A DNA stretch of 64,000 nt from a virus: positions 1-64,000 of the IMG/VR virus record IMGVR_UViG_3300032516_000009; one strand, 5' to 3'. Made by a program: the position numbers and the translations under genes. Positions within the stretch are counted from its first letter, which is position 1. Each line of letters opens with the position of its first letter. Under the pieces are notes generated by a model, which did no database searches, was not told the origin of the DNA, and saw only the letters and a list, made by a program, of their open reading frames with translations. This document shows positions 4,417 to 60,826 of the stretch, piece by piece.

Positions 4417-4445
4417 TCAGAACTATTTAGTTATTAAAGGGGTAC

Positions 4446-36400: not shown

Positions 36401-36750
36401 GGATGTTCATTAAGCATATTAACTAGGTCATCACCGAATGCGTTATAAAGTTTGGCCGCCGTGATTGGTCCAATAGATGGTATATTATTGGCTAAGTACG
36501 TGATAATTCCATTCCTGCCTTTTTCCGGAATTACTTCACATGTCTGAGCATGGAATTGTTGTCCGTATGTTGGGTGCTCCTCAAATTCACCACCGTTAAA
36601 TTTAACTTTCAATCCAATGCTAAGATTGGCCCCGGGAAAAGTCCCTTTAATCACAATATTCTTATCAGCTACCTTGGTTTTTAATATGTAAAACCCAGTA
36701 TGTACGTTCGAGAAGATGATACTATCTATTTTTCCTACTATTTCTTCCAT
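33433..36750 (-). CDS. recD2: RecD2-type helicase precursor with intein
   Basis: The 1105-residue precursor loses an intein (428-789) to give about 743 residues, typical for RecD2. The N-terminus has OB-like and helix-hairpin-helix parts (NIPSIGPITAAKLYNAFG, CPGVGFQTADTA). Helicase motifs include GYPGTGKT (349-356, Walker A), VIVDEM/SM (motif II, split by the intein), VGDPAQLPSVG (motif III) and AYACTAHRTQGQEFDFVLLP (motif V). RecD2 is a 5'-3' superfamily 1 helicase acting in repair. It is convergent with the RHH gene. Confidence 0.92.
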   Translation of the reverse strand: MEEIVGKIDSIIFSNVHTGFYILKTKVADKNIVIKGTFPGANLSIGLKVKFNGGEFEEHPTYGQQFHAQTCEVIPEKGRNGIITYLANNIPSIGPITAAKLYNAFGDDLVNMLNEHPEEVAKLDFLTSIQSKIIVEEWKKSNETRTAALFLADLGLNSAQIKSVYTIFGGTTISIVKENPYNLYGCPGVGFQTADTAACKLGIEADDIRRVHALILFVIDDLARSEGHMYCTSDQILEHASKIFARYKLEPFVHGEYVSQSDLYSSINFLKEAGHIHVHNDRIYLYDNWIYESESAECMAEIIRCGSKSLGNLNEILQKFESTRNLILSDEQRNAFFLLEKSRICVVSGYPGTGKTLLISAFVHLFEENNLNYILLSPTGIAAKRLSQMTGRPAFTIHRALGYGYGGEWEFNRGNKYHVDAVIVDEMCLPYKQFVNLADGSKKYIGTIVNSKEQVEVLSYNKKTKKIEPKVVTNWFKYERKNELYKIVLSKTLSHNRTRILRCTGKHKVYMDSGLLKRASDINKEDRVIIHGRFLNSFQESFLLGSLLGDSSISKYGKNKQSCNIRFVHGQLQEDYLKFKANLFHSSIRKCRGGFNKNKFLWTSTTLKIDGLEDIKDLLYLNGRKTITKTWLDRIDAIGLAAWYMDDGQLSKTKTKRSKNPSICAYLHTEGFSKIECRIIVDWLRDKWAVNGSVYRNGSRGHYYIRLTCASSIKFFDIIRPYIIDSMSYKIQGKVGYKIPEFLPYNDTGSYYVQSISTYTPNDQYSKYVYDIEVKDNHNYFSNNILVSNSMVDGNTLYHLISSLSHETILIFVGDPAQLPSVGAGYVLHNLMLNPIIPHVSLTQIYRQEGESDIIKIAHAILSGRDIDISFKKDSEVVFLNFEKNKVIDEMCKITSLMRNNQSNFQVIAPKYDGDLGVNNLNRKLREVLNTQYSANKAAKIKHGACDLYEGDRIMVIKNDYDRMIYNGDVGKVHRISIRDDEVEVRIFNWFDYESGTPRYIDKIFTFNIEEARSVLKVAYACTAHRTQGQEFDFVLLPMTMQYGYMLYRNLIYTALTRAKKKAFIFGDSRAFLFAVNNIRETVRNSSLSDLISECISECTDQSEN
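34384..35469 (-). mobile_element. Intein in RecD2, inserted in helicase motif II (ends SN/S)
   Basis: Residues 428-789 (362 aa), between VIVDEM and SMVDG, right after the catalytic Asp-Glu. It starts CLPYKQFVNLADGSKK, has TGKH (504-507) as block B, homing-endonuclease helices FLLGSLLGDSS (542-552) and GLAAWYMDDGQL (639-650), and ends ILVSN before Ser790. The penultimate residue is Ser rather than His. Confidence 0.9.
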
Positions 36751-40398: not shown

Positions 40399-43176
40399 CT
40401 ACGAACAACCGCTGGATTGTCCGCAAGAGTCGCAAAGGTAACACGCTCCGTTCCTACGCATGATGGAACCACAAACGGCACATGGAGGAGCATCCATGGA
40501 CATGCTCGGTGGTCTAACACTCTGAGACCATTCATGTGATGCATCTTCGACTGATTCTTCTGAATTCACGTTATCAGAAGACCTCTTATTGAGCCCAGTG
40601 ATTTCTCCTCCAAAATACTTAATATCTAACAATTTGAATAAATAATCATATAGACTGTCAGCAAATCTGATCCTAGAATTCTTAGTAAACCCTGATGGGT
40701 CAAATTTAGTATGGGCAAAACTACGAATGAGTTTATCCAATGGTACTCCATATTGGAGAGCAATACTCAATAATTGAGTAAACCCGTCAATGAACCCGTT
40801 CATAGTGGACCCGCTCTTACCAAGCTTAAGGAAAACTTCGCCCAACGCCCCATCAGGATACTCATTCATAATGACGTATCCTTTGCATTCACCGATTTCG
40901 AATCTATGACGGGATCCGTTGCAGTCCTCAGGTAACGGTTTGCGCTGAGTTACGTAAACAGGAGCTATCTCCGTCTTGTTATTTATCTTATCTTGCTTGG
41001 TCTCGAGCGGCTGAGATTTCTTACAGCCATCTCGATAAAGAGCGAGACATTTGATTCCAAGTTTCCACCCCTCCATATAAAGATTCGCTATCTCTTCTGC
41101 TGTGATATTATTAGGGAGATTGATCGTCTTGCTTTGCGCGCAAGTGATCAAAGGCTGGATGGCGGCCATCATTTCCAAATGTGCCATTGGGGATAAATAT
41201 CTCATGGAAGGACCAGTCGGCGCCGCACAATCAAATATTGGGAGATGATCCTGTTGCAGTCCGGGAGCCCCTTCAATATAGCCATTATCTTTAACATATT
41301 CGTATATCGATTCGACTGCATTGTGTGAATATCCAAGCCTGTTTAAAGCATCATGTATGGTGTGATTCACCAAGATTTCCTGTCCACCGCCAACCATTGA
41401 TTTATATGATACTAGCGAATAAGCCGGCTCTATACCAGTGGTATCCATGCCCATCATAAAAGAAGTTGTCCCGAGAGGGGCCTGAAGGGTTGCTTGGGAC
41501 ACGCTGTACCCGAATTTATGTCCCAGTCTTATTACTTCACTCCAGACTTCAGCACTCCTGGAAACTACGTCATCTCCAAGTAAATCTTTATCTATGCCCC
41601 ATCTATCGCATATATTCGCATTGGCTTCCTGATGCATTTTCATAATGCCGAGCATTTCTGATCGATTCTTCTCAAAATCGGGAAATGCACCACGTCTCGC
41701 CGCTAACTTAGACGAAACCAAATATGCATTACCAGTCATCAGACTAGCAAGACGAGCCGCAATTGAGCGGCCTTCATCAGAATCGTACCCATGTCCCAAT
41801 CTCATCAATAGAGCCCCGAGGTTTCCATAATTCAATCCAATAGATCGAAGCTGATGAGTATTCTTAGTAATTGCCTCGGTTGGATATGATGCTTTGTCTA
41901 CAATAATATCCTGAGATACTACGAAGACTCTGATTATGTGCTCGAAATGATCAATCCTCAATTCATCACGATCATTGAAGAATTTAGTTAGATTTATGCC
42001 ACACAAATTGCAAGCTGAATCGTCGATATTTAAAAACTCTGCACATGGATTCGATGATCTAATTTTTCCACTATTAGGCACCGTATGCCAACGATTGATC
42101 GTATCAGTATATTGAATCCCGGGATCTCCACACATCCAGGCTGCCTGAGATATTTCCTTCCATAAGTCCTTGGCCTTATATTTATGGATAACTTCGTTCG
42201 TCAATCTTCCCTTTGTAAACCATTCTTCATCATTTATAACAGCCATCATGAACGAATCAGGTATACTAACTGAATGATTTGCATTCTGATACATCACATT
42301 CTTGTATGCAGAATTTGGATCATCGTATGCTGAACTATATCCTATATTAATTAAATCGTGTGCTCTTTTTTCTTCAACAGCTTTGCATTTAATAAATCCG
42401 GGTCTTCCATCCCTTGTTTCTAGAATATCAGGATGGTCCATATCCAGAACAACTATCTTCGCAGCGTTACGCGTAGCGCCGCCAGATTTCATGGCTCCAG
42501 CAAACTGATCTAAACCACGCATAAATGCAATTGGTCCAGAGGTATACGATCCAGCTGAGATCTTTTCATATGAGGATCTGAGATTCGAAAAATTAGCTCC
42601 GGAACCAGATCCACTCTTAAAGATATTGAGTTCAGTTGATTGGAATGCAATAATTTCATCTAACGAATCACCAACGCTAGAAATAAAGCACGCTGATGCT
42701 ATATGTTTACGTCCTGGTACACCTAAATTAAACCAAACTGGAGAATTGAATGATCCAAATTGATGAAGCATAGCATAAATTAACTCATCTTCATATATTT
42801 CAGCATCAGAATTCGTATCAAAATATCCCTGCTCTTCTCCCCATTCACGTAAACAACTCGCCACCCTGGACAGCATTTGTTTAACTGAATCTTCTCGTAT
42901 TTCATTAATAACTCTAAAATATTTCTCAACGACTATGTTTGTGGTTGTCTGATTCCACCATGATGGAACCTCAACATTCCTTTGTTCAAATTTAATCTCG
43001 CCTTTATCTGATATAATGCGAGCATCAACTCGCTTCCATTCAACAGTATTGAATGGATGCAGTCCTTCTACGGTGAAAAATCTATCCCAATGACCGATGT
43101 TTATCCCTTCGGACAAAGAACTCTCCGGTCGACGTATATTATTCATAATATTAACGATTGCTACGTCGTTTGACAT
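40399..43176 (-). CDS. nrdJ: Class II (adenosylcobalamin-dependent) ribonucleotide reductase
   Basis: The product has 925 residues. The 10-stranded barrel carries ACFISSVGDSLDEI (Cys163, first redox Cys), FKSGSGSGANFSNLR and SSNPCAEFL (376-381, the Asn-Cys-Glu radical site), followed by a second Cys region (SACNLCGINL). The C-terminal CAVCGSIMRRNGACYLCDSC supplies the reducing cysteines. Class II enzymes need vitamin B12 and work with or without oxygen. It supplies dNTPs for phage replication. Its start overlaps the end of holA by 26 bases. No intein is present, although RNR genes often carry one. Confidence 0.93.
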   Translation of the reverse strand: MSNDVAIVNIMNNIRRPESSLSEGINIGHWDRFFTVEGLHPFNTVEWKRVDARIISDKGEIKFEQRNVEVPSWWNQTTTNIVVEKYFRVINEIREDSVKQMLSRVASCLREWGEEQGYFDTNSDAEIYEDELIYAMLHQFGSFNSPVWFNLGVPGRKHIASACFISSVGDSLDEIIAFQSTELNIFKSGSGSGANFSNLRSSYEKISAGSYTSGPIAFMRGLDQFAGAMKSGGATRNAAKIVVLDMDHPDILETRDGRPGFIKCKAVEEKRAHDLINIGYSSAYDDPNSAYKNVMYQNANHSVSIPDSFMMAVINDEEWFTKGRLTNEVIHKYKAKDLWKEISQAAWMCGDPGIQYTDTINRWHTVPNSGKIRSSNPCAEFLNIDDSACNLCGINLTKFFNDRDELRIDHFEHIIRVFVVSQDIIVDKASYPTEAITKNTHQLRSIGLNYGNLGALLMRLGHGYDSDEGRSIAARLASLMTGNAYLVSSKLAARRGAFPDFEKNRSEMLGIMKMHQEANANICDRWGIDKDLLGDDVVSRSAEVWSEVIRLGHKFGYSVSQATLQAPLGTTSFMMGMDTTGIEPAYSLVSYKSMVGGGQEILVNHTIHDALNRLGYSHNAVESIYEYVKDNGYIEGAPGLQQDHLPIFDCAAPTGPSMRYLSPMAHLEMMAAIQPLITCAQSKTINLPNNITAEEIANLYMEGWKLGIKCLALYRDGCKKSQPLETKQDKINNKTEIAPVYVTQRKPLPEDCNGSRHRFEIGECKGYVIMNEYPDGALGEVFLKLGKSGSTMNGFIDGFTQLLSIALQYGVPLDKLIRSFAHTKFDPSGFTKNSRIRFADSLYDYLFKLLDIKYFGGEITGLNKRSSDNVNSEESVEDASHEWSQSVRPPSMSMDAPPCAVCGSIMRRNGACYLCDSCGQSSGCS

Positions 43177-44077
43177 TCTTTACTTCCTCCGATAAACGAA
43201 CGATTTCTAATTCTAGTCCGAGATGAGCAGAATCATCTCCACGCTTGTGTGCGATATCTAAGGCGCATATGATATCTAAACTATGGAGTAAAGATTGTCT
43301 ACTCCACAACCCGACACGCGGCAGTATCACATTCTTGTAAACAAATGGGTGCACGCCAACCCTCTCAATGATACTGTTGATCGGCGTCTTTTCGATTATT
43401 AACGCATCGATTCTTATATATTGCAATACATGACGCTGTAGGTATGCTATAATCCACCCGGTTTCGTCCGCTCTCTCCTGGAGCATATCGTAAAAAGCCA
43501 ACGCCCGATCGGTATATCCCTCGCATATTGCGTCCACAATTCCCTTAGGAGACAACTCAGCAGAAAAGCAAATAAGAGCTTTTGCTATTTCCGGTCTGAC
43601 ACTATCCCCAGAGGAGGTGAGAATCGCCAGCTTACGAATCTCGGATGAGATTTTTCGTAGGCTCTTTCCATGGCTCACAAAAAGGGCACCAGCAACTGGA
43701 CTTAGATCTATATTAAGAGATCTACCCTCATCGAGAATCCATTTTATTATTTGGTTATTAGATTCGAATGTCTTGAATTTTGGAAAATTATGTATTCTTC
43801 TAGCTCTATCATCCTTCAATGCTTTCTCTTTAGATACTAAAATTAATATATCAGAATTACCAAAAGGCAATTCCGGGATCTGATCAACGTTCCAAAGAAT
43901 GAATACCCTGGACTCGCCAGAAAGTGGAATGCTTTGTATTTCATCTAAATACTGAGGTAAATTCGATTCACAATCGAATTGGATAATGCTTCTGATTAAC
44001 GAACTGCATGCTTCATCAAAAGCTGCCCGCTCTTTGAGAAATTCTTCCTCCCCATTAATAATGATAAGAGTGGACAA
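43151..44077 (-). CDS. holA: DNA polymerase III delta-like clamp loader subunit
   Basis: The 308 residues follow the HolA plan: an N-terminal AAA-like domain without a P-loop (IIINGEEEFLKERAAFDEA, YLDEIQSIPLSGESRVFIL, DILILVSKEK). A helical domain follows (HGKSLRKISSEIRKLAIL), then the collar region (GWIIAYLQRHVLQYIRID). Delta opens the sliding clamp. Together with DnaX and HolB in this window it would complete a bacterial-type loader. It lies between holB and nrdJ. Confidence 0.78.
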   Translation of the reverse strand: MSTLIIINGEEEFLKERAAFDEACSSLIRSIIQFDCESNLPQYLDEIQSIPLSGESRVFILWNVDQIPELPFGNSDILILVSKEKALKDDRARRIHNFPKFKTFESNNQIIKWILDEGRSLNIDLSPVAGALFVSHGKSLRKISSEIRKLAILTSSGDSVRPEIAKALICFSAELSPKGIVDAICEGYTDRALAFYDMLQERADETGWIIAYLQRHVLQYIRIDALIIEKTPINSIIERVGVHPFVYKNVILPRVGLWSRQSLLHSLDIICALDIAHKRGDDSAHLGLELEIVRLSEEVKNVKRRSNR

Positions 44078-44093
44078 TGTTCTAAATAATACA

Positions 44094-44900
44094 CTAAAAT
44101 GCTAAACAAGCTCTCTGCCAATGAATTTCGGCATTAATTGACGGAATTCTTTTTAGATTTGAAACAAAAGATAATAAATTAATGGCAATATTGCGATCAA
44201 GCTTCTGCCCTAGAGAATCCCTAATAGCCATAGAACAAATACGTGAAACAATATCTATTTCGATACTAGATTTACTCGAAATTTTCTTAATAACATCAGG
44301 GATTGAAACAACCATTGGGTTTACAAGGCCGGTGACTATATTGATCATAAGTTTATATAATTCTTCATATGATTTATCACTGATTATTTCATGATATAAA
44401 CCGGGACGACCATCACATACTTTAATTGCGAATTCATCAATTGATAGAGACTCCGCATTGATGAATTCTTCCATTTCAGATCTAGTCAGAGGATTCCACC
44501 CTATTCTACGTGTAATTCTGGAATGTAGTGGGCTCAGAAGCCAATGATCGTCATTACAAATGAGAAATATCTTCAAATGTTCAAACGGCTCTTCAAACAA
44601 TTTCAGGTATGCATCCTGAGCCGGCTCGCTAAGACGATCAGCACCATTTATGACCAAGGCCTGGAATGGGCTGTATATGGACGAGATCGATAAAGAAGAT
44701 GCAACGTATCGAGCTGCGTCTATTGTGTGATCAACTACGAATATATCAGAATCAGTAAATACAACAGCATGCAACTGCTCCATAATGAAACTATGTTTTC
44801 CAATATTCGATGGACCAACTATTGCGATGACTTCAGATATAGAATTATTCAGAGTTGTCTTTAGAATTTCCTGCTGCCGGGAGTTTCCGAATATTTTCAT
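44094..44900 (-). CDS. holB: DNA polymerase III delta'-like clamp loader subunit
   Basis: The 268-residue product begins FGNSRQQEILKTTLN and has a P-loop-like GPSNIGKHS (29-37), Walker B region FQALVINGADRLSEPAQDAY, LFEEPFEHLKIFLICND (sensor 1) and SPLHSRITRRI in place of the usual SRC. These are DnaX/HolB family features; the shorter length and lack of zinc cysteines favour delta'. It follows a zinc-ribbon gene, which it overlaps by 56 bases, and precedes holA. Confidence 0.8.
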   Translation of the reverse strand: MKIFGNSRQQEILKTTLNNSISEVIAIVGPSNIGKHSFIMEQLHAVVFTDSDIFVVDHTIDAARYVASSLSISSIYSPFQALVINGADRLSEPAQDAYLKLFEEPFEHLKIFLICNDDHWLLSPLHSRITRRIGWNPLTRSEMEEFINAESLSIDEFAIKVCDGRPGLYHEIISDKSYEELYKLMINIVTGLVNPMVVSIPDVIKKISSKSSIEIDIVSRICSMAIRDSLGQKLDRNIAINLLSFVSNLKRIPSINAEIHWQRACLAF

Positions 44901-49682: not shown

Positions 49683-49937
49683 ATGAGAAAAAGAAAAAGA
49701 AAACAGTGTTTTCTTTTGAATGAAAGAGGCGACAACGTTCAGTTGGCTGCTTTCATCGAGCAATTTGCTCTGCGTTTTTCTCGAGATCTTCAGAGTGACT
49801 CCCTCCGTCAGTTGAATGAGGTAACCTATGTTTTCCTCACTGAGGTTCCCATGACATTGTATCGTCATGTAGTGCCTCACGGTCCGACCCTATGCGCATC
49901 ACTCTACACTCACAAACAGTCTATTCGTTATGAATAA
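49683..49937 (+). CDS. Small hypothetical protein (strand uncertain)
   Basis: The 84-residue product begins with a very basic MRKRKRKQC and continues LAAFIEQFALRFSRDLQ. Its stop overlaps the start of the next plus-strand gene by eight bases, which favours this strand, and AGGA lies nine bases before the ATG. A minus-strand frame of similar length (49629-49880) overlaps it and cannot be excluded. Function unknown. Confidence 0.45.
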   Translation: MRKRKRKQCFLLNERGDNVQLAAFIEQFALRFSRDLQSDSLRQLNEVTYVFLTEVPMTLYRHVVPHGPTLCASLYTHKQSIRYE

Positions 49938-50634
49938 AGATCGATCAAATATTATTGATCAAATAGATAAATGTCTCAAGAGAATGTCCGGATCTAAGGA
50001 TCGCCCTTATTTCAAACAATTTCTAGAAAGAATTATAATAAATAATATCGTTCCTGTTGAATTATTGGAAACGATCCCAAAATTAGTTACTTCGGCTGGT
50101 AAAACACGGTTTGATCAAATTTATGATGCTGCGCTATATTTAGTCTTCCCTAAATATAGAAGAGAAACACTAAACAAATTACTTGGGCCAGAGTTGAATA
50201 AAAATGATATTAAGATCTGGCGGATAATGCTGCCAGATAAATTCAAAATCAGTCATGTACTAATCAGGGCAGATTCTTGTCAACAAGCCTTTGCCCTTGG
50301 TTGTGACTATGCATGTCGGATGTCGTTAAGAATGTATGGAAGAATCCCGACTGATTTGACCATTCGAGTTCAATTTGTGAGTGAGAAAGCTGTTAGACGA
50401 ATGCTTGATCTCAGATGGGCAAATCGAGTGCATAAAAGGAAACAATTGCAATTAGTCGGTAGAGAGTATTCATCAAAGGAGATAGTTGGGGCTCGTTTAG
50501 CCGCTATCGGCCATCCGATACAGTCCAACTATTCAATAGCTAAATATGCTGAAAACAAGGATCTCAAACGATTGTTATGTAAGAAAGGAATACTGCGCAT
50601 ATCATCAGTTGAAACAGAAATATTTAAAAAGTGA
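49930..50634 (+). CDS. Hypothetical protein
   Basis: The product has 234 residues. The helical first half (YFKQFLERIIINNIVPVEL, LLETIPKLVTSAGKTRFDQ) is followed by a mixed domain: KISHVLIRADSCQQAFALGC, DYACRMSLRMYGRIPTDLTI. The C-terminus is basic. It is one of few plus-strand genes here and ends six bases from a convergent zinc-protein gene. Function unknown. Confidence 0.55.
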   Translation: MNKDRSNIIDQIDKCLKRMSGSKDRPYFKQFLERIIINNIVPVELLETIPKLVTSAGKTRFDQIYDAALYLVFPKYRRETLNKLLGPELNKNDIKIWRIMLPDKFKISHVLIRADSCQQAFALGCDYACRMSLRMYGRIPTDLTIRVQFVSEKAVRRMLDLRWANRVHKRKQLQLVGREYSSKEIVGARLAAIGHPIQSNYSIAKYAENKDLKRLLCKKGILRISSVETEIFKK

Positions 50635-50639
50635 TCTAT

Positions 50640-51029
50640 TTATAGATATATAACCATGGTTTTTTGGGCATTACACGTAGCAATAACAGGTTTTTCCGAT
50701 TTTGGTCCAATTTGATTTGAAGTATAACCAAATTGTTTTAATGTCTCAATCTCATCTATAGAGTTATGTCCTTTCTTTGAATATGAATTGAAAAATTCTA
50801 TCGGATTTAACTGTTCGCTATTATTTTTCTTCCAATTTGATTTGATCTGATCACATTTTGTACACGCATGTGGAAAACCAGACCTAGATGGTTTTATCAT
50901 TTGACATTTTCGTCTTGAAAATTCTTTTGAACAGAAATCACATCTAAGCACAATCAATTTGATGCTACATCGACTGATGTCTTCAATACGATAACCATAA
51001 ATTTCATGTGTACGGTTTGATAACAACAT
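50640..51029 (-). CDS. Zinc-finger protein related to the nuclease N-terminus
   Basis: The ATG at 51029 with CTCC/GGAG placed 8 bases away gives 129 residues. A CDFC...CTKC pair with about 25 residues between resembles the split zinc site at the N-terminus of the 562-residue nuclease and of the protein at 20710-21162. Trp-repeats are mostly absent (one KSNWKKNN). A longer frame to 51083 would run into the divergent purZ-like gene. It may be a truncated DNA-binding module from a homing-endonuclease relative. Confidence 0.5.
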   Translation of the reverse strand: MLLSNRTHEIYGYRIEDISRCSIKLIVLRCDFCSKEFSRRKCQMIKPSRSGFPHACTKCDQIKSNWKKNNSEQLNPIEFFNSYSKKGHNSIDEIETLKQFGYTSNQIGPKSEKPVIATCNAQKTMVIYL

Positions 51030-51031
51030 AG

Positions 51032-51041
51032 GGAGTACTCC
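51032..51041. promoter_or_regulatory. Palindromic Shine-Dalgarno shared by two divergent genes
   Basis: GGAGTACTCC is its own reverse complement. On the plus strand GGAG lies six bases before the ATG at 51042 (purZ-like); on the minus strand GGAG lies eight bases before the ATG at 51029. One 10-base element thus appears to serve both starts, and the two mRNAs would be complementary here. Confidence 0.65.
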
Positions 51042-52208
51042 ATGCAACAGGGAAAAATTAATTTTATCATCGACCAGGCACATGGGTCAAGTGGAAAAGG
51101 TAAACTATCACCATGGTTGGTTGATCATTTCAATTTTAAAAATGTCAGTTCAAGTAACTTCCCGAATGCTGGCCACTGTCTTAGATATACAGATGAATAT
51201 AAATTCATGGCCAAAGTTATACCAACATCGGCTGCATTAAAGAAATTTCAAAATCGTGACATTGTATGCTGGTTAAGCCCAGGGTCTGGCTTCGATCCTG
51301 AAAGACTAATATTAGAATGGAATGAATCTGGCAGACCACAAATATTTATTCACGAAAGAGCCAGCATAGTAACAAAAGAACATAAATTAAGAGAACAGTC
51401 TGGTATTGATTCAACAAAGCATATTGCATCAACTATGCAAGGATCAGCCACTGCGCTAACAGACAAAATACTCAGAAAAGCCAATTGCGTTCTAGCTAAA
51501 AATGTTGATTGGAATAAATATGTGAATCAAAATGATTTATCAGAATTCATGAAGACAGTGAAAATTATGACTGGACAAGAATTTAGAAACAGAACACATG
51601 ATGAATTAAATAAGATGAACGGATTCTGCCATGAAGTATCCCAAGGATACGCACTTTCAATTGATCATGGATCACATTATCCAATGTGCACGAGTAGAAA
51701 CTGCACACTTCAAGCTGGAATGGATCAAATGGCAATTCCACCAAAAATGGTGGGTGATGTTTATTTGAATATCAGATCAATACCGATTCGCGTTGGCAAC
51801 GTGATTGAAAACGGAGAACAAAAGGGATATTCAGGTGATTTTTATCCGGATAGTATTGAATTAACCTGGGAACAGGTGGCCAAAAATGCTAAGATGCCAG
51901 ATGAAGAAGTTGAAAAATTAAAGAAATCTGAGCTAACATCAGTTACAAAACGTCAGCGCAGATGTGCAACTTTTTCATGGATAAACCTTAAAGATGCCGT
52001 TCGGGTCAATGGGGCTACTAGACTCTGCGTCAATTTCATCCAGTATATTAACTGGAATGACCGTGGGTTAAAAGGCGGAAGAGAAGCTTTTGAGAAGTTA
52101 TCCAGAGAAAGTCGTGGTTTCATTTCTAAGATTGAAGAGGAAGTAAATGTTCCTGTGGTTCTGGTCGGAACCGGTGCTCTCCACGATGAGGTTATCTCTC
52201 TTTTATGA
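51042..52208 (+). CDS. purZ: PurA-family synthetase with PurZ-like active site
   Basis: The 388-residue product is an adenylosuccinate synthetase relative. The P-loop reads DQAHGSSGKGKLSPWL, where cellular PurA has GDEGKGK: the catalytic Asp is replaced by Ser. The His motif PNAGHCL, SQGYALSIDHGSHYPMCTSR and the dimer segment IPIRVGN are kept. Loss of this Asp is a reported feature of phage PurZ, which condenses dGMP with Asp on the way to 2-amino-dATP (Z). It could alternatively be a divergent phage PurA. No DatZ, MazZ or DpoZ is in the window, so a Z-genome is not shown. Confidence 0.75.
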   Translation: MQQGKINFIIDQAHGSSGKGKLSPWLVDHFNFKNVSSSNFPNAGHCLRYTDEYKFMAKVIPTSAALKKFQNRDIVCWLSPGSGFDPERLILEWNESGRPQIFIHERASIVTKEHKLREQSGIDSTKHIASTMQGSATALTDKILRKANCVLAKNVDWNKYVNQNDLSEFMKTVKIMTGQEFRNRTHDELNKMNGFCHEVSQGYALSIDHGSHYPMCTSRNCTLQAGMDQMAIPPKMVGDVYLNIRSIPIRVGNVIENGEQKGYSGDFYPDSIELTWEQVAKNAKMPDEEVEKLKKSELTSVTKRQRRCATFSWINLKDAVRVNGATRLCVNFIQYINWNDRGLKGGREAFEKLSRESRGFISKIEEEVNVPVVLVGTGALHDEVISLL

Positions 52209-53387: not shown

Positions 53388-53463
53388 TGGTGCGGGCGAT
53401 TGGACTCGGACCAACGACTTCCAGCTTGTCGAGCTGGCGTTCTACCAACTGAACTACGCCCGC
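53388..53463 (-). tRNA. tRNA-Val(GAC)
   Basis: A full cloverleaf can be folded: acceptor GCGGGCG/CGCCCGC, D stem GTTC/GAAC, anticodon stem CCAGC/GCTGG with loop TCGACAA, T stem GTTGG/CCAAT, and an encoded CCA. Position 33 is C instead of the near-universal T, and the T-loop reads TCCGAGT, so decoding efficiency is uncertain. Confidence 0.75.
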
Positions 53464-53470
53464 GATAAAT

Positions 53471-53496
53471 AGTAGGCTGGGACTTGAACCCACAAG
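53471..53496 (-). pseudogene. tRNA 3' fragment
   Basis: AGCTTGTGGGTTCAAGTCCC followed by AGCCTA on the minus strand looks like a T-arm plus part of an acceptor stem, wedged between tRNA-Val and tRNA-Leu. No matching 5' half is present, so it is probably a leftover of a deleted tRNA gene. Confidence 0.5.
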
Positions 53497-53504
53497 CTAA
53501 GTAG

Positions 53505-53588
53505 TGGGCGCGGAGGGAATCGAACCCTCACATCCTTGCGGATCTCCGGGTTTGAGCCGGAGGCGGCTGCCTGTTACGCCACGCGCCC
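53505..53588 (-). tRNA. tRNA-Leu(CAA)
   Basis: Acceptor GGGCGCG/CGCGCCC, anticodon stem TCCGG/CCGGA with loop CTCAAAC, and a long class II variable arm (GATCCGCAAGGATGT region). No CCA is encoded. Confidence 0.85.
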
Positions 53589-53597
53589 ATAAGATAG

Positions 53598-53682
53598 TGG
53601 GATCGGAGGGACTCGAACCCTCACGCCGATGAACGGCACCAGACTCTGATTCTGGCTTGGCTACCAGTTACAACACGATCCC
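53598..53682 (-). tRNA. tRNA-Leu(CAG), copy with unusual loop
   Basis: Acceptor GGGATCG/CGATCCC, anticodon stem CCAGA/TCTGG with loop ATCAGAG, and a class II variable arm with stem GCCG/CGGC. The anticodon reads CAG, but position 32 is A. No CCA is encoded. Confidence 0.7.
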
Positions 53683-53687
53683 TTGAG

Positions 53688-53771
53688 TGTCTAGGGCGGG
53701 AGTCGAACCCGCAAGCCCTTTCGGGCGCTCGCACCTGAAACGAGAGCGGTTACCTGTTTCGCCACCTAGAC
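53688..53771 (-). tRNA. tRNA-Leu(CAG)
   Basis: Acceptor GTCTAGG/CCTAGAC, anticodon stem CTCGT/GCGAG with the typical Leu loop TTCAGGT, variable arm CGCCCGAAAGGGCTT, T stem GCGGG/CCCGC. No CCA is encoded. Confidence 0.85.
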
Positions 53772-53826
53772 AAAAGACTTTTCGAATTGGTACGGTATGG
53801 AAGACGCATAATGAAGGAGGAACTTC

Positions 53827-54612
53827 ATGTCTTCCAAATATACTATTGAGTCGCTAGAACCAATAGTGAAGAATTCCATTAGCATGTACGGAGTCTTGCG
53901 ATCTCTTGGTCTTAGATACGCAGGAGGAAATTGGAAACACATTGCCGATCGTATTAAGTATCTTGGAATAGACACGTCGCATTTCCGCGGGTTGGGATCC
54001 AATCATGGTATTAATCATGTTGGAGGGGTAAAACGAATTGAGTGGCGTGATGTATTGGTCTATAATAGGAAAAACGGTAGACGTGAAACTCAAAGAGTAT
54101 TGCGTCGTGCTTTAATTGAGTCTGGTATCAGTGAGAGATGTGAAATATGTAATCTTGACCCGATATGGCATGATAAACCACTAAGCCTACAGATTGATCA
54201 TAAAAATGGGGATTTTTTAGACAATAGACCGGGCAACCCCCGGTTTTTATGTCCGAATTGCCATACTCAAACAGAAAATTACGGATCTAAAAAATTCAAA
54301 CTACACAAAATGTGTGCATCATGTGTACCAAGAACTAAAACCGTACGAACTTGTCTTAAATGTGGTAAACAAATTAACATTAAGTCAAAATACTGTGTTG
54401 AATGTGCACGAATCGAAATCCCGTCCGCTACCAAAATAACTTGGCCAAATGATGGAGAATTACAGTTATTAGTATGGCAGCGTCCGATGACAACTCTTGC
54501 AAAGGAATTTGGGGTTTCAGATAAAGCAATTCTAAACCGATGCAAAAAACATGGAATTAAAAACCCTCCAACTGGTTATTGGTCGAAAATCAAACACGGA
54601 ATCATGCCTTAG
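53827..54612 (+). CDS. HNH homing-type endonuclease in the tRNA array
   Basis: GGAGG lies seven bases before the ATG. The 261-residue product has an N-terminal helix-turn-helix-like segment (ISMYGVLRSLGLRYAGGNW, 18-36). The HNH core follows: CEICNLDPIWHDKPLSLQID, HKNGDFLDNRPGN, LCPNCHTQ, about 107-160. A zinc pair (CLKCGKQINIKSKYCVEC) and a C-terminal helix-turn-helix (MTTLAKEFGVSDKAILNRCK) complete it. It lies on the plus strand, opposite to and between tRNA genes, as free-standing homing endonucleases often do. Confidence 0.85.
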   Translation: MSSKYTIESLEPIVKNSISMYGVLRSLGLRYAGGNWKHIADRIKYLGIDTSHFRGLGSNHGINHVGGVKRIEWRDVLVYNRKNGRRETQRVLRRALIESGISERCEICNLDPIWHDKPLSLQIDHKNGDFLDNRPGNPRFLCPNCHTQTENYGSKKFKLHKMCASCVPRTKTVRTCLKCGKQINIKSKYCVECARIEIPSATKITWPNDGELQLLVWQRPMTTLAKEFGVSDKAILNRCKKHGIKNPPTGYWSKIKHGIMP

Positions 54613-54695
54613 TGCGGATGATAGGAATCGAACCTACACGGGATCTCTCCCACTTCCACCTCAAAGAAGCGCGTATTCCATTTCGCCACATCCGC
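54613..54695 (-). tRNA. tRNA-Leu(GAG)
   Basis: Acceptor GCGGATG/CATCCGC, D stem GCG/CGC, anticodon stem CTTCT/GGAAG with loop TTGAGGT, and class II variable arm TGGGAGAGATCCCGT. Its 3' end abuts the stop codon of the HNH gene. Confidence 0.85.
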
Positions 54696-54722
54696 ATAAG
54701 CTTTTGTTCAGGTTAATTTAAT

Positions 54723-55052
54723 ATGCAAAATCAATTGCATAAAATTGCAATATTACTAACTACTCCTAAAGAGTATATTGTTATTCATCGGAGTATGGAT
54801 GATGTATATACTATCGTAATCAGTACGGATCAGGTTAGACCAGCGTCTGGAGATTATGCTATCATAAATTTACCCAATGGTGATTCTGTCACCATTGCTA
54901 AAGATTTAGATACTATCAAGGCAAATGAAGATATGACAAACACGGATCTATTGGAAGCATTGCACGAATTTGGAATTATTACGATGGATGATAACGGTAA
55001 TTATGTTGATAAGGACGGCAATCCTGTCGGTCAGGGTAAATCGTCCCCATAA
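54723..55052 (+). CDS. Small hypothetical protein
   Basis: The product has 109 residues, beta-rich and acidic, with SMDDVYTIVISTDQVRPASG and a repeated MDDNGNYVDKDGNPVG end that resembles a Ca-binding-like or tail-fibre-type turn. It lies among tRNA genes on the plus strand. No family is recognised. Confidence 0.5.
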   Translation: MQNQLHKIAILLTTPKEYIVIHRSMDDVYTIVISTDQVRPASGDYAIINLPNGDSVTIAKDLDTIKANEDMTNTDLLEALHEFGIITMDDNGNYVDKDGNPVGQGKSSP

Positions 55053-55156
55053 TATTTGAGATCCATCTGAATTCCTGATCTCATATCCACCCAAATCTTA
55101 GAATTTGAATGGAAAAATTGAGAAATTCCAAAAATACTTCAGTAACAAAGTGTAAG

Positions 55157-55225
55157 TCGCGGTGAGGGGATCTCGAACCCCTGCGGTCAGACGTATGAAA
55201 TCCGCCGACAACCCTGATCACCGCG
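55157..55225 (-). tRNA. Atypical tRNA with CAT anticodon (short D-arm)
   Basis: Acceptor CGCGGTG/CACCGCG pairs perfectly and the anticodon stem CGGAT/GTCTG has loop TTCATAC. Only 14 bases separate acceptor and anticodon stems, too few for a normal D-arm, and the T-loop is one base too long. It may be a decayed or unusual tRNA-Met/Ile2. Total length 69. Confidence 0.5.
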
Positions 55226-55260
55226 GATAGTTAATTCTCCATAGCTACACAGCCATGTAG

Positions 55261-55334
55261 TGTCCCCGACGCGAGTCGAACTCACAACCTTCGGCTCCGG
55301 AGGTCGACGCTCTTTCCAATTGAGCTACGAGGAC
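55261..55334 (-). tRNA. tRNA-Arg(CCG)
   Basis: Acceptor GTCCTCG/CGGGGAC, D stem GCTC/GAGC, anticodon stem TCGAC/GCCGA with loop CTCCGGA. The 5' 30 bases are identical to those of tRNA-Arg(TCG) at 59615-59688. The stop codon of the gene at 55325-55582 lies inside it. Confidence 0.85.
55305..55334. repeat. 30-base direct repeat, left copy (flanks tail-fibre cassette)
   Basis: The plus strand CGACGCTCTTTCCAATTGAG followed by CTACGAGGAC is repeated exactly at 59659-59688. It forms the 5' half of a tRNA-Arg gene in both places. The tail-fibre gene and a small gene lie between the copies, 4.35 kb apart. Confidence 0.9.
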
Positions 55335-55582
55335 CCGAACAGATTATCCCACAGGCTATGCCACGATTCTGCGTCATGCGTGCCATCGCAGAGAAGAGCC
55401 CCAACGAACTTTCCTGCATCACCACTACACGGCTTGGAGTACTGCAACAGCGCGTCTCGGCGCTTGTCGAAATCTGCTTCATCATACAGGCTCTTCAACC
55501 GCTCCCTAGGAATGCGCCGATAGTTGGTTTCTTCAGATGCGATAACTTGCAGAACGAGGTGACCTGGTACTGGAATCGGCAT
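55325..55582 (-). CDS. Small protein downstream of tail fibre, candidate fibre chaperone
   Basis: The 85-residue product starts with ATG, seven bases after AGGAG and nine bases after the fibre stop, so it is co-transcribed with it. The sequence is GC-rich like the fibre (VPGHLVLQVIASEETNYRRI, GKFVGALLCDGTHDAESW). Small genes next to fibres often encode assembly chaperones; that is inferred from position only. Its TAG stop is supplied by the 5' end of tRNA-Arg(CCG). Confidence 0.55.
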   Translation of the reverse strand: MPIPVPGHLVLQVIASEETNYRRIPRERLKSLYDEADFDKRRDALLQYSKPCSGDAGKFVGALLCDGTHDAESWHSLWDNLFGSS

Positions 55583-55591
55583 GACGCGCTC

Positions 55592-58500
55592 CTAGACGTA
55601 GTCGAGCTTCAGTGTGCCGAGGAAGGTTCCGACGTATGAGGACCAAGACTTGGTCAGACCAGCCGTTCCACCGCTGTTGATGGCGGTCCACACGAGCGGA
55701 GTGGACTTGTACGCCAACCCAGCTAGAACCAAGCCGGGTCCACACGAACTTGGTGTAACAGTCAGGAACCGTGCATCTACCAAATAGACCTTTCCGGTCC
55801 CACCCGCATCACTGACGTGAACGTAACCACCTCCACCTACGATGTTTGCTGCATTGGCACAGCCCGGGAGAGCCACAGTGGCCAGGAGAGAGCCGGGGGC
55901 AGGAAAGGTCGAGATGTCGAACTTCAGAGCGTTACCACCTACTCCTGTACAGGCCCACAGGTGCCAACCACCCGAGCCATCACTGGCATAGACGAGACCA
56001 CTGATGGTCTCTGAAGCGTGCGTGTAGGTCGAGACGATGGCAAGCGTGCCCAGATTGATCTTGAAGATCTTTTTGCTTGTGCCTCCTGCAACCCAAAGGA
56101 AGCCCCCACCGATGCAACAGTCCACCATCTCAGTACCAGGACCGGGGTTCGTAGTCGTTGCCTCGGCGTTCATCTGGCTCTTGTAGTCTCCCCAGCAGCG
56201 CAAGAGGTCAGACTTGGCAAATCGGCGCACGCTGGAATTGAACGCTTCCGTGGTGCCCGAGCTGACGGCGTAGATCTTGTCACCACTAATGGCAACGCCC
56301 AATACGTTTCCATTCGTGACATACCTTCCGCAGCTCCCATACCCAGCAAGTGTGTAGTATTGACCGTCGAAGCTGCTCTTTCTCACCAAGGTGATCATGC
56401 TGTCGGAGTCATTGGCAATTACGATATGGGTCTCATCATGGGTAACACGACCACCCTTGGTCACCAGCCCGAAAAGCGCCGGGTAGCTCATGTCCACTTT
56501 GTGGACCGAAGTCTCGCCAGAGTAGAGATATAGGATCGATGACGAACTGTCCGTTATGATTAACTTGCCGTGACTAGAATCGTAGTCGACCCCCTTGGGC
56601 GCTGTGGGAATGTCATGAACCACGGTCAAGACTTTACCAACGGCGGCATTGGTCATGTCCGCAACAGGCATCCCCTTGATGCTGCGAAGGACTGGTACTG
56701 GAGCATAGTTGCGTTGGTCTACAGACATATCCCCCTTCGGTGAGCCGAAGTTCATCCAGTCCAGGTTGCCGGGTCTATAGTCCTCAAAGTTATTGACGAC
56801 ATAGGAGCCGGCTCCTGGGTAGGTCGAACACCACGTGGCCTCGCCCGTTTCATCTTGGGCAATCCAGTAGATGTAGTCCCAACTAGGGTCAAAGAGGACT
56901 CCGCGCAGTACTGCGTTCTGCGACCAGAAGTCTCCAAGAGCCATAGTGCCGAATGGAACCGTGATGTTCTGGATCCCCACGTAGTCCATTGTGACCATGA
57001 TCGTGGGCGTGTCGGCCTCGTAGCACAAGTCGTAGGTCGGACCCTGGATCGTGATGCTGTCGATGATAGAAAACGTGGTGGGATCGAACCTACACAGGTT
57101 GGTGCCTCTCTCAGAAACGAAGAAGATGATTCCCTTCTCACAGATAGCCCGCACGCGATTCGACGTTGCGCTTGGGATGGGCAGCGACGTGGAAGAACTC
57201 CACGAGGCCAGGTCGAACTTAAATACATTGGCCGTGCCAAAGAAGAACGCAGCCGAACCGACTACAATGATTCCACGTCCTTCCTCACCCAATACCAAGT
57301 CATGCCGCTTGACCTGATTCGTCTCGGCGTCGATCTCGATGACGATCCCGCTGTCATGCTCAAGAGTCGTCAAGACTCGATTTCCAACAGGGTCCCACGC
57401 TAGACCTTGTCCCCCGTACCTAAAATCAGGGCTCGGGATCGGGATGCCATACTCCAATACGTCCCAGGTGTTCCGGTCGATCTTGACCAAGTTAGGTAAG
57501 TTGGTGAGCACCCACACGTAGTTGGGAGTCATCAGCAACGTGTGAGGACGACTGTCTGCTCCCAGGCCCGTCCGGAGTGGGATGCTGTAGTGCGAGGAAT
57601 CCGTGTCGAGGTCATGTACGAGAATGTCACTCACTCCCTCACGACACATCCACGCATAGGGGCCCTCCCATTTTTGCGCCGAGGGGTTGTAGGTCCGGTC
57701 TAGAAGCATGTGACCACAGACGACCCTACTCTGCCCACGTTCTGCGCCCACAATGGGAACGTAGCCAACTCCCGGCTTGTACTGACCCTGTAGACCTTCC
57801 AGAAGGTCTAAGCGGCCACTCGACGCAACACGCTTCGGCACCGAGCCATAGGCCTGTTCCGTCACATAGCCGACTAACCCCGAGCCCCCATCAGGGTAGT
57901 TAACGTAGTAGATTCCAGTTCTACTGCCCTGAATGCCTGGTAGGAAGCCTCCAATGTACGCAATATTCCCGATGGCCGCTGCGCCCTCGCTGTGGAATTC
58001 ACCAGGCGTGAACGTAGCCTCTACCGTGTTCGTATTCGGGTCGATGACCCACACAAAGGCGGAGTCTTCATCCGTCACATATAGCCGCGTGTTTAGAGTG
58101 CCCGCGCTATCAGGCCCAAGCGCAATCTCACTGGTCGCGCTGGCATTCGGAAGTGTGACAGCCGCGAGCGAAGATAAATCCACCGTGCTTAGTCGCTGGA
58201 CCTGAGTCCCATCCGAAATCCATAAATCACCGAACGCAAGACAAGAGGACAGAGCCGCTGTGGTGCCGTCTGCAACCACTAGCGTCATCGTGCCCGGATC
58301 GACTTTTTGCGTACCCGTGCCGTCGAACATACCCCCCTGCGTGAACCAGATATATCCTCCGCCGTAGCGAATGAAACGTCCTCGCGCATTGTAGCTTGCA
58401 ACCCGCGTGATCGTGCTTGGGGGCTGGCCAAGGCAGGCTACCGTACTGAACTTGGCAATTCCCTTTGGTGTCCCATTGCCGTAGCAGTAAAAATTACCCG

Positions 58501-59506
58501 CCCCATCCGCACAGACGCTCGTGGCCTGCTGACCAGCTCCTAGCCACCCCCAGCCCGCAATCGTCATCGTGGCCTTGTCAATGATGGCCACATTTTCGGA
58601 AGTCCAACATGCAGCGTAAATATACGTACTGTCAACAGCTAAATCACGAACGCGGTCGATTGTAGGGAGCACAGTCCTCAGGTCAACTCGTTTAACCACG
58701 GACAGCGCAGGGCCCCCATTCATCGGCAACATCTTTACGACCAGGCCAGAACCGGCAAGGCTGTTGGAGGTGTCGCTGACGGTTGTTGACTCGGCCGCGT
58801 AGAGATAGGTTCCATCCGACACGAGCGAGCGAGGCGAATACAGACCTGATCCTTTGTCTTGTGGAGCAACAATCAAACCTCTACCCGCAAGTGCTGAGTC
58901 AGGTGATGGAATACGGTTAATTGACGCAACGGTTTGCTCTATACTTGTGCCTGTTAAATCTCCATCGGCTGTAAATCCGCCACCCGTAGGATCTTGTGCG
59001 GTCCATCCAGTTGATATTACTTCTCCTCCTCCCACTGCCCATGTCAGTACTTGCCCTATTCCTGGTGTACAACTTAATGCAGCATTGCCTTGAATACCAA
59101 CTACAGTTTGATTCGTACTGGTGCCACTCAAATCACCACCAGCTGTGAATCCACCAGTAGCGGTTACAGCTGTTATTCCTGCTGGTCCTTTAGGCCCAAT
59201 AAATCCTGGTGGACCTTGGAATTGTCGAGCGAGAGAATCTATTGTGCCTTTCTGGACGTATCGAACTCCAAATTCATATGCAGTTTGTCCAGTAAATGGA
59301 CTTTTAACTTCTAAGAACGATAACTGCGATAAATCATGGGATCCAGAAGTGATGCCCAAACCTGTTAAAACTTGAGAATATATAGTAGAACTCATAAGTG
59401 TCGCATAAGGATTGGATAAAATTTCATCAGTGCTCAGGAGTATGACTCCTTGCACTACATTGAATAGACCTGAAGCAATTTTCTGTACACCTACAGTTGT
59501 AGCCAT
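55592..59506 (-). CDS. Tail fibre / receptor-binding protein with collagen-like neck and beta-propeller body
   Basis: The product has 1304 residues. The N-terminal 95 residues should attach to the virion. A collagen-like GPPGFIGPKGPAG (about 98-110) and two copies of a GGFTAxGDLxGTS motif (118-135 and 177-190) follow. From about residue 200 the chain is a series of beta-propeller-like repeats (LAVDSTYIYAACW, LLMTPNYVWVLTNLP, GLVYASDGSGGWHLWAC), resembling YVTN/NHL proteins. The DNA changes from AT-rich to GC-rich at about 58900, matching the start of the propeller, so the body was probably acquired from another source. It is likely the host-recognition part. Confidence 0.75.
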   Translation of the reverse strand: MATTVGVQKIASGLFNVVQGVILLSTDEILSNPYATLMSSTIYSQVLTGLGITSGSHDLSQLSFLEVKSPFTGQTAYEFGVRYVQKGTIDSLARQFQGPPGFIGPKGPAGITAVTATGGFTAGGDLSGTSTNQTVVGIQGNAALSCTPGIGQVLTWAVGGGEVISTGWTAQDPTGGGFTADGDLTGTSIEQTVASINRIPSPDSALAGRGLIVAPQDKGSGLYSPRSLVSDGTYLYAAESTTVSDTSNSLAGSGLVVKMLPMNGGPALSVVKRVDLRTVLPTIDRVRDLAVDSTYIYAACWTSENVAIIDKATMTIAGWGWLGAGQQATSVCADGAGNFYCYGNGTPKGIAKFSTVACLGQPPSTITRVASYNARGRFIRYGGGYIWFTQGGMFDGTGTQKVDPGTMTLVVADGTTAALSSCLAFGDLWISDGTQVQRLSTVDLSSLAAVTLPNASATSEIALGPDSAGTLNTRLYVTDEDSAFVWVIDPNTNTVEATFTPGEFHSEGAAAIGNIAYIGGFLPGIQGSRTGIYYVNYPDGGSGLVGYVTEQAYGSVPKRVASSGRLDLLEGLQGQYKPGVGYVPIVGAERGQSRVVCGHMLLDRTYNPSAQKWEGPYAWMCREGVSDILVHDLDTDSSHYSIPLRTGLGADSRPHTLLMTPNYVWVLTNLPNLVKIDRNTWDVLEYGIPIPSPDFRYGGQGLAWDPVGNRVLTTLEHDSGIVIEIDAETNQVKRHDLVLGEEGRGIIVVGSAAFFFGTANVFKFDLASWSSSTSLPIPSATSNRVRAICEKGIIFFVSERGTNLCRFDPTTFSIIDSITIQGPTYDLCYEADTPTIMVTMDYVGIQNITVPFGTMALGDFWSQNAVLRGVLFDPSWDYIYWIAQDETGEATWCSTYPGAGSYVVNNFEDYRPGNLDWMNFGSPKGDMSVDQRNYAPVPVLRSIKGMPVADMTNAAVGKVLTVVHDIPTAPKGVDYDSSHGKLIITDSSSSILYLYSGETSVHKVDMSYPALFGLVTKGGRVTHDETHIVIANDSDSMITLVRKSSFDGQYYTLAGYGSCGRYVTNGNVLGVAISGDKIYAVSSGTTEAFNSSVRRFAKSDLLRCWGDYKSQMNAEATTTNPGPGTEMVDCCIGGGFLWVAGGTSKKIFKINLGTLAIVSTYTHASETISGLVYASDGSGGWHLWACTGVGGNALKFDISTFPAPGSLLATVALPGCANAANIVGGGGYVHVSDAGGTGKVYLVDARFLTVTPSSCGPGLVLAGLAYKSTPLVWTAINSGGTAGLTKSWSSYVGTFLGTLKLDYV

Positions 59507-59533
59507 AGCATAAATACATCATAGGAAGCGTAT

Positions 59534-59610
59534 TGGTACCCCCGGTGCGAGTCGAACGCACAAACCTCGTGATCCGTAGTCACGCGCTCTATCCATTGAG
59601 CTACGGGGGC
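59534..59610 (-). tRNA. tRNA-Arg(ACG)
   Basis: Acceptor GCCCCCG/CGGGGGT, D stem GCTC/GAGC, anticodon stem CGTGA/TCACG with loop CTACGGA, and an encoded CCA. A34 would normally be changed to inosine. Confidence 0.9.
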
Positions 59611-59614
59611 ATAG

Positions 59615-59688
59615 TATCCTCGGCGAGAGTCGAACTCGCAACATTCGGATCCGAAGTCCGACGCTCTTTCCAATTGAGCTACGAGGAC
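59615..59688 (-). tRNA. tRNA-Arg(TCG)
   Basis: Acceptor GTCCTCG/CGAGGAT, anticodon stem TCGGA/TCCGA with loop CTTCGGA. It shares its first 30 bases exactly with tRNA-Arg(CCG) at 55261-55334, so the two are recent duplicates or recombination partners. Confidence 0.88.
59659..59688. repeat. 30-base direct repeat, right copy
   Basis: Identical to 55305-55334 and also the 5' half of a tRNA-Arg gene. With the left copy it brackets the GC-rich tail-fibre cassette. Confidence 0.9.
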
Positions 59689-59692
59689 ATAG

Positions 59693-59764
59693 TGATCCCA
59701 ACGGGATTCGAACCCGTATTGCCGGCGTGAGGGGCCGGATTCCTGGCCGTTAGAAGATGGGATC
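59693..59764 (-). tRNA. tRNA-Glu(CTC)
   Basis: Acceptor GATCCCA/TGGGATC, D stem TTCT/AGGA, anticodon stem CCGGC/GCCGG with loop CCCTCAC, T arm CGGG-TTCGAAT-CCCG. Position 33 is C, not T, as in the tRNA-Val of this cluster. Confidence 0.8.
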
Positions 59765-59767
59765 GAA

Positions 59768-60367
59768 TTACTGATCCATTACATATTCAGTAGCATCATT
59801 ACTATTATCTATGAACATTGATGATATGACACTAGTCATGAATTTTCGATATCTGGGTTGCTGATTATGTTTTCTAGTCGGACTTCTACCAGACATCGGA
59901 TATGAACGAAATGAAAGGACTTTTCGTTTTGAACTTTTTTCAATACCAACTCGTCTATATTCAACTGCTATATAAATGAATTTATGCGGGATGAAAATCC
60001 GCTGACAGTATGGATAAGATGGAGAACGAATTTTTCGCACCTGAATGAACTTTTGAGCAAGAAAATGAATTTCTCCAGTAAATGTTCCTTTATATGAAAA
60101 AGTCATATTGCATCTGAATGTTTTCTCAGATCTCGAAATATTATTTATGTTGACCAAAAATGCGCGCTTGCGGAACAGCACCTTCATTATTGAAGTGAAT
60201 GGCATTACTGCATAAGACGGGATGGTGTCTTGTATTTGATTAAGAAATGGTTGAAATTCATCAAAACTGATAAAAATTGTCTTACCAAACGCTGCCATTG
60301 CAGTAGATATATTAATTTTTTGCAGGCAATCCGTCGCCATTGCAGCTTCACGTACGGAAGTTTCCAT
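59768..60367 (-). CDS. Hypothetical basic protein
   Basis: The 199-residue product is mixed alpha/beta in the first 130 residues (AMAAFGKTIFISFDEFQPFL, AFLVNINNISRSEKTFRCNM, FTGEIHFLAQKFIQVRKI). A basic tail follows (SSKRKVLSFRSYPMSGRSPT). It lies between tRNA genes. The N-terminal SVREAAMATDC recurs in the adjacent non-coding stretch. Function unknown, and reality of the gene is only moderately supported. Confidence 0.45.
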   Translation of the reverse strand: METSVREAAMATDCLQKINISTAMAAFGKTIFISFDEFQPFLNQIQDTIPSYAVMPFTSIMKVLFRKRAFLVNINNISRSEKTFRCNMTFSYKGTFTGEIHFLAQKFIQVRKIRSPSYPYCQRIFIPHKFIYIAVEYRRVGIEKSSKRKVLSFRSYPMSGRSPTRKHNQQPRYRKFMTSVISSMFIDNSNDATEYVMDQ

Positions 60368-60560
60368 GCACCAGAATTTACATTTGATGTATAAATGCTG
60401 CTATTGCAATCTAGCAAATTGCTGAACAGGAGAACCGTAACACGGTTTCGAAATCACGTTACGCCATATTGGGCAGTCCATCGTCATCGCAGCTTCACGT
60501 ATGGGTGTATCCAAAAGGCGAGGGCAATCTACATTGACAACGGATTGATCTAATATTTTG
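60368..60560. other. Short stretch without a convincing gene, with a diverged repeat
   Basis: No plausible coding frame starts outside tRNA-Cys. On the minus strand a segment encoding DTPIREAAMTMDC (near 60471-60515) resembles the METSVREAAMATDC start of the neighbouring gene; the two 42-base DNA segments share GCAGCTTCACGTA. It may be a broken extra copy of that gene's start. Confidence 0.35.
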
Positions 60561-60633
60561 AGGCGGAGGTGGGTTACGATCCCACGCATGTCGCTTTTGC
60601 AGAGCGATACCTTCCCAACTTGGCTACTCCGCC
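60561..60633 (-). tRNA. tRNA-Cys(GCA)
   Basis: Acceptor GGCGGAG/CTCCGCC, anticodon stem TCGCT/AGCGA with loop CTGCAAA, T stem GTGGG/CCCAC. The T-loop ATCGTAA is unusual in its first base. Confidence 0.85.
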
Positions 60634-60644
60634 AGATTGAATAG

Positions 60645-60717
60645 AGCTCCCGGTGAGATTTGAACTCACGACCCGCGACTTACGAAATCGCTGCTCTACC
60701 TACTGAGCTACAGGAGC
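60645..60717 (-). tRNA. tRNA-Thr(CGT)
   Basis: Acceptor GCTCCTG/CGGGAGC, D stem GCTC/GAGC, anticodon stem GCGAT/GTCGC with loop TTCGTAA, T arm GTGAG-TTCAAAT-CTCAC. Confidence 0.9.
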
Positions 60718-60739
60718 AAACAATCTACTTTACAATTAG

Positions 60740-60826
60740 CGGAGAGAGTGGGATTTGAACCCACGGACGGGTTTATTCGTCGCTCGCTTAGCAAGCGAGT
60801 GCCATAGGCCACTCGGCCATCTCTCC
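60740..60826 (-). tRNA. tRNA-Ser(GCT)
   Basis: Acceptor GGAGAGA/TCTCTCC, anticodon stem CTCGC/GCGAG with loop TTGCTAA, long class II variable arm (GACGAATAAACCCGTC region), T arm GTGGG-TTCAAAT-CCCAC. Confidence 0.9.

Follow-up and report, generated by a model that had tools for sequence, protein, structure and literature searches.

A predicted PurZ-type succinoaminodeoxyadenylate synthetase encoded by a putative jumbo phage, and a candidate route to 2-aminoadenine DNA

The stretch of DNA analysed here, referred to as the window, comprises bases 1-64000 of a 110,922-base IMG/VR virus record classed as linear (IMGVR_UViG_3300032516_000009), and its forward strand carries a gene, here called purZ, whose 388-residue product is homologous to the adenylosuccinate synthetase PurA (Table 1). 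The gene is complete, with a ribosome-binding-like AGGGAG a few bases 5' of the ATG, and the protein matches Pfam family PF00709 (3.2e-27). A preliminary description made from the nucleotide sequence had proposed that the P-loop reads GSSGKGK where PurA has GDEGKGK, the catalytic His motif and other motifs of the family being kept; the coordinates, the substitution and the motifs were all confirmed (NAGH, STMQGS, SQGY and ELTSVTK..RR are present). A 147-aa open reading frame (ORF) on the reverse strand (50640-51083), overlapping the start of purZ, had no homologue among the proteins of the relatives and was set aside.

The serine that replaces Asp13 of PurA, Ser16 of the window protein, is invariant in the 42 jumbo-phage relatives of our residue table (42/42), such that a chance origin of the GSSGKGK sequence was ruled out. 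Mapped onto the residue roles and the numbering established for the PurZ of cyanophage S-2L (PMC8342488), the window protein carries S16, N42, A43, H45, T131, R145, Q201, T217, R250, V251, T299, K303, R306, N331, F332 and Q334. The positions that distinguish PurZ from PurA are, in S-2L numbering, S23, T273, K277, N305, F306 and Q308 (PMC8342488). At every one of them the window protein has the PurZ-type residue (S16, T299, K303, N331, F332 and Q334, where PurA has D, G, G, T/M, K/M and D), and nearly all of the 42 relatives concur. T299, Q334 and the pair N331/F332 match T273, Q308 and the pair N305/F306 of S-2L, the last being placed at the adenine of the donor, whereas two hallmarks of PurA, the catalytic base Asp13 and the Asp that reads GTP, are missing, with Ser16 and Gln334 in their place.

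Profile searches and structure prediction agree with the residues. The top NCBIfam model for the window protein was PurZ NF038379 (169.5 bits, short of the 300 bits set as its curated cut-off), with PurA models scoring 46-150 bits; the top phage family was PHROG 1211, annotated as 2-aminooxy adenylosuccinate synthetase, and the closest PDB entries by sequence were the PurZ enzymes of phiVC8 and S-2L. An AlphaFold2 model built from 29 sequences reached a pLDDT of 94.4, and Foldseek ranked S-2L PurZ first (7odx, with dGMP and dATP), phiVC8 PurZ next and archaeal PurA close behind. In a tree drawn at its midpoint, in which a single archaeal PurA sequence was included, the window protein fell inside a 43-row clade of jumbo phages (support 100/99); the other members of this clade are without exception IMG/VR contigs, the largest of 436 kb, and the Ser is present in each. 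The clade is sister to one of 31 rows holding the PurZ of cultured phages and of small IMG/VR phages (98/94; joint node 100/93). Next outward comes a protein of Bacillus phage vB_BpsS-140, and PurZ0, a rhizobial protein and PurA lie outside PurZ plus the jumbo clade. The window protein therefore groups with PurZ, as part of a sister clade and away from PurA.

Sequence, tree and structure together support the earlier suggestion that the enzyme is PurZ rather than PurA, and we consider that the window protein is very probably a PurZ-type enzyme. With the PurZ of S-2L and of vibriophage phiVC8 (7odx, 6fm1, 6fko) it has in common the fold, the Ser at the Asp13 position, the dGMP pocket residues, the Thr and Lys of the aspartate loop and the ATP-type N-F-x-Q/N motif, although identity is only 30-33%; unlike them, the jumbo-phage proteins retain two features reminiscent of archaeal PurA, an insert ahead of the aspartate loop and the C-terminal segment. 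Grouping with PurZ0 fails, since the window protein stands apart from it in the tree and has Gln334, not Asp, at the Q308 position. The PurZ0 of the actinobacteriophages Archimedes (7vf6) and Beethoven shares the Ser at the Asp13 position at 25-28% identity, has Asp at the position of Q334 and lacks the N-F motif. That the enzyme instead acts on IMP as an ordinary adenylosuccinate synthetase, boosting the supply of ATP and dATP, is highly improbable: its superfamily membership, the fold shared with PurA of Pyrococcus horikoshii (5k7x), to which the predicted structure is also near, and the archaeal-like loop insert and C-terminal part would fit such a role, but every member has Ser in place of the catalytic Asp13, the GTP-reading Asp and the Gly residues of the PurA loop are replaced in the PurZ manner, and the tree position speaks against it. 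Judging from the sequences, the window protein is part of an undescribed PurZ branch of some 50 mostly very large phage contigs. A scan of bacterial and archaeal genomes with a protein alignment found a single locus, in a metagenome-assembled genome of Deltaproteobacteria.

Several relatives of the enzyme were recorded along the way. The closest cultured PurZ homologue is that of vB_BpsS-140 (L020:7956-9077; 32.6%), which reads GSEGKG and has no datZ or mazZ annotated nearby. The cultured 168-kb Flavobacterium phage MaF61 (L009) encodes a PurZ-like protein on a long branch and, some 10 kb from it, what is annotated as an adenylosuccinate lyase. On Rhizobium plasmid pCB3171_2 (L030:3452-5056), a fusion gene combines an N-terminal kinase-like part with a PurA/PurZ-like domain that reads GSEGKG and so has Ser where PurA has Asp13; it lies near SIR2 and AbiE genes, and its product may be a PurZ-like enzyme with a part in defence. 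In an IMG/VR record of 192,972 bp, the purZ of a close relative is split by an in-frame intein-like insert (L014:8603-11065), which sits directly after NAGHC, the catalytic His motif.

Table 1. Features of the purZ region in the window and of related genes in the remainder of the same record.
Feature	Position	Strand	Remarks
purZ-type succinoaminodeoxyadenylate synthetase (predicted)	51042-52208	+	388 aa; ATG start; profile, tree and structure-model evidence
P-loop GSSGKGK, residues 15-21	51084-51104	+	Ser16 at PurA Asp13 position
Aspartate-loop and ATP-base signature, PurZ type	51936-52046	+	T299-K303 (TSVTK) to N331-Y335 (NFIQY); aligned to S-2L PurZ numbering (PMC8342488)
234-aa protein	49930-50634	+	No Pfam match; adjoins purZ; homologue near purZ in nearly all close relatives
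Class II (B12) ribonucleotide reductase	40399-43176	-	NF005122, 1097.8 bits (cut-off 859); likely source of dGDP and other dNDPs
DNA polymerase III delta-like clamp-loader subunit	43151-44077	-	Syntenic in relatives
DNA polymerase III delta'-like clamp-loader subunit	44094-44900	-	Syntenic in relatives
5'-3' exonuclease, PolA N-domain type	22135-23145	-	Separate gene
HGPRT (window's record)	94964-95500		215.8 bits (cut-off 150)
ThyX (window's record)	96792-97535
dNMP kinase, DNMK (window's record)	90565-91494

The neighbourhood of purZ is conserved. One flank has, in maintained order, the genes for clamp-loader subunits, for a sigma-like protein and for the uncharacterised 234-aa protein; on the other flank the relatives have genes for a 186-aa uncharacterised protein, ThyX, a dNMP kinase and further proteins, the homologues of which lie at 87-97 kb in the window's record. 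The class II ribonucleotide reductase (RNR) reported earlier for the same phage was verified by its profile score (Table 1). Homologues of purZ at 51-64% identity occur in contigs of up to 436 kb; the 110,922-base record is probably a fragment, about one quarter to one third of a jumbo-phage genome if that genome is as large as those of the biggest relatives.

Elsewhere in the window, the reverse strand encodes a 562-aa protein (25034-26722) with a C-terminal domain of the Mom family (PF25680, 3.4e-19), enzymes that modify adenine; homologues lie beside purZ in L011, L045 and L056, so the gene is probably mobile. LAGLIDADG inteins occur in three large reverse-strand genes (4446-8957, 9658-12999 and 33433-36750), one of which encodes a RecD2-type helicase, and 12 tRNA genes, 4 for Leu and 3 for Arg among them, are clustered at 53388-60826 in a stretch of higher GC content with HNH genes.

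The enzymes that accompany PurZ in known phages were sought as well. The preliminary description was right that the window encodes no DatZ, MazZ or DpoZ, and the rest of the 110,922-bp record also lacks them; searches of the record for PolA, PurB and IMPDH were likewise negative. The missing DatZ, MazZ and DpoZ are uninformative because the window belongs to a 110.9-kb fragment. In seven large close relatives (G002, G005, G008, G010, G011, G012 and G015) we found an HD phosphohydrolase of PF12917 (YfbR/DatZ-like). In each of them its gene overlaps or directly adjoins one of MazG-like type (convergently in L155, co-directionally elsewhere), and PolA lies about 10 kb away, again in 7/7. Unlike in S-2L and phiVC8, where purZ is clustered with datZ or mazZ, here the HD gene and purZ are 93-234 kb apart, such that a fragment with flanks of 51 and 60 kb would miss the former. 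Two large records, G013 (251 kb) and G030 (315 kb), depart from this pattern in having PolA but no PF12917 match; in G016, PolA lies at a contig edge, beyond which the HD gene would fall. Some relatives add genes to those of the S-2L datZ-mazZ-purZ cluster. Members of PF00206, the PurB superfamily, were found in six close-relative records, and the two that were checked (G008 and G015) scored 474 and 458 bits against a PurB cut-off of 326; IMPDH is encoded in four close-relative records and one distant record, and in G002 it is adjacent to GuaA (GMP synthase), just after the HD and MazG-like genes. DNA polymerase III alpha was found in one of seven records, and the PolA region of one relative also holds a thymidine kinase gene (L155:7891-8466).

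In the pathway that we propose, GMP would be supplied by IMPDH, GuaA or HGPRT, class II RNR would yield dGDP, and the MazG-like enzyme would trim dGTP to dGMP. PurZ would then use ATP (or dATP) as phosphate donor to couple aspartate to dGMP at position 6, with N331, F332 and Q334 forming a predicted adenine-reading donor pocket where PurA has its guanine-reading Asp. The product, N6-succino-2-amino-dAMP (dSMP), would be cleaved by PurB to dZMP, the nucleotide of 2-aminoadenine (Z), and dNMP kinase would start its phosphorylation toward dZTP, while the HD phosphohydrolase would remove dATP or dAMP. Copying of the DNA would fall to the phage PolA, assisted by a clamp and clamp loader of the phage itself. 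In the relatives the rest of this probable pathway is encoded elsewhere in the genome. On the basis of homology, signature residues, phylogeny, predicted fold and the gene content of relatives, we put at roughly two in three the probability that the window holds a PurZ enzyme of a jumbo phage whose remaining pathway is encoded elsewhere in the genome. From the same basis we infer the substrate and all flux steps, as well as the presence in the window's own phage of the genes missing from the fragment and of 2-aminoadenine in its virion DNA. The gene content of the relatives and of the window's record suggests that 2-aminoadenine DNA is made by a more self-sufficient pathway, and the genomes of the jumbo clade probably contain this base to a substantial degree.

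A number of observations weigh against this reading. The HD protein keeps the metal ligands of DatZ and its R19, K81 and K116 but has Tyr or Phe for W20 and Ser or Thr for I22 (residue roles from PMC8065100), and it is nearer to YfbR, its best PDB match, than to DatZ. The MazG-like call rests on an EAGE...ELPDVIIY motif plus weak profile matches; neither DUF550 (PF04447) nor DUF5664 (PF18909) was found in the jumbo records, in searches that were positive in two small-phage records. The PolA of the relatives scored 47-71 bits against DpoZ_1 (cut-off 500) and 258-272 bits against ordinary DNA polymerase I, and it keeps the Tyr of helix O, where both DpoZ clades have Phe (PMC8599892); its identification as DpoZ (NF038380/NF038381) was rejected on the score and on this residue. 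Moreover, HD and MazG-like enzymes are also found in phages with ordinary DNA. As for NF038379, the sub-cut-off score means that the window protein is more distant than the set behind the model, which is a matter of threshold and not a biochemical trait. The earlier idea of a modified genome is supported only by inference, from large relatives with HD, MazG-like and PolA genes, several of them with PurB, IMPDH or GuaA, and close homologues of the characterised DatZ, MazZ and DpoZ were not found.

These observations lend themselves to a different outcome, in which PurZ makes the precursor of dZMP but virion adenine is replaced partly or not at all, the product serving as a low-level modification or as precursor of a further modified base. 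The relatives lacking a DpoZ-type polymerase, the HD enzyme devoid of the DatZ specificity residues and a more remote subclade of jumbo phages (about 32-43% identity), with no PF12917 protein in the records searched, would accord with it. However, a missing DpoZ does not exclude Z-DNA, because S-2L, which lacks it, has a genome that is entirely Z although its PrimPol is non-selective, dATP being removed (PMC8065100), and the retention of purZ with its Ser in some 50 contigs, together with the surrounding dNTP genes, favours use on the scale of the genome; we regard partial or no replacement as unlikely. The distant subclade raises yet another arrangement, as an NDT-family gene (PF05014) lies near purZ at six of its loci (L065, L069, L071, L073, L074 at 4103-4546, and L077) and recalls both the DmtZ of PurZ0 phages and the independent recruitment of which a pattern has been described (PMC12884076). 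The dGMP enzyme could accordingly work in a pathway like that of PurZ0 phages, where NDT-family salvage enzymes rather than DatZ and MazZ control the pool and the preference for donor or substrate varies by subclade. We find this quite improbable for the window, since the NDT-bearing subclade is not its own, its closest relatives have HD and MazG-like genes, and its record gave no match to the NDT protein of the distant subclade.

A 2026 survey of NCBI viruses divided phage PurZ into PurZ and PurZ0 and did not mention jumbo phages (PMC12884076). The literature searched, which leaves out most preprints and subscription journals, contained no report of a jumbo-phage PurZ; for the cultured jumbo phage PhiMa05, PurB is listed and neither PurA nor PurZ is named. 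The characterised Z-DNA phages (phiVC8, S-2L, ZP6 and others) have genomes of about 38-68 kb and depend on their host once dSMP has been made (PMC12884076, PMC8342488). There is perhaps an even chance that PurZ has a third, deep lineage in jumbo phages, whose contigs reach 436 kb and which themselves encode most of the Z route (IMPDH/GuaA or HGPRT, class II RNR, MazG-like enzyme, PurZ, PurB, dNMP kinase and HD phosphohydrolase), their Z-DNA being copied by a PolA of canonical signature with phage clamp and clamp loader. If true, this branch would extend Z-DNA to genomes far larger than those in the papers cited, with adenine replaced in genomes up to about ten times larger, by a different type of polymerase and with a purine supply of their own, and it would allow an independent check on two possibilities, that Z-DNA requires a Z-selective polymerase or that control of the nucleotide pool is enough.
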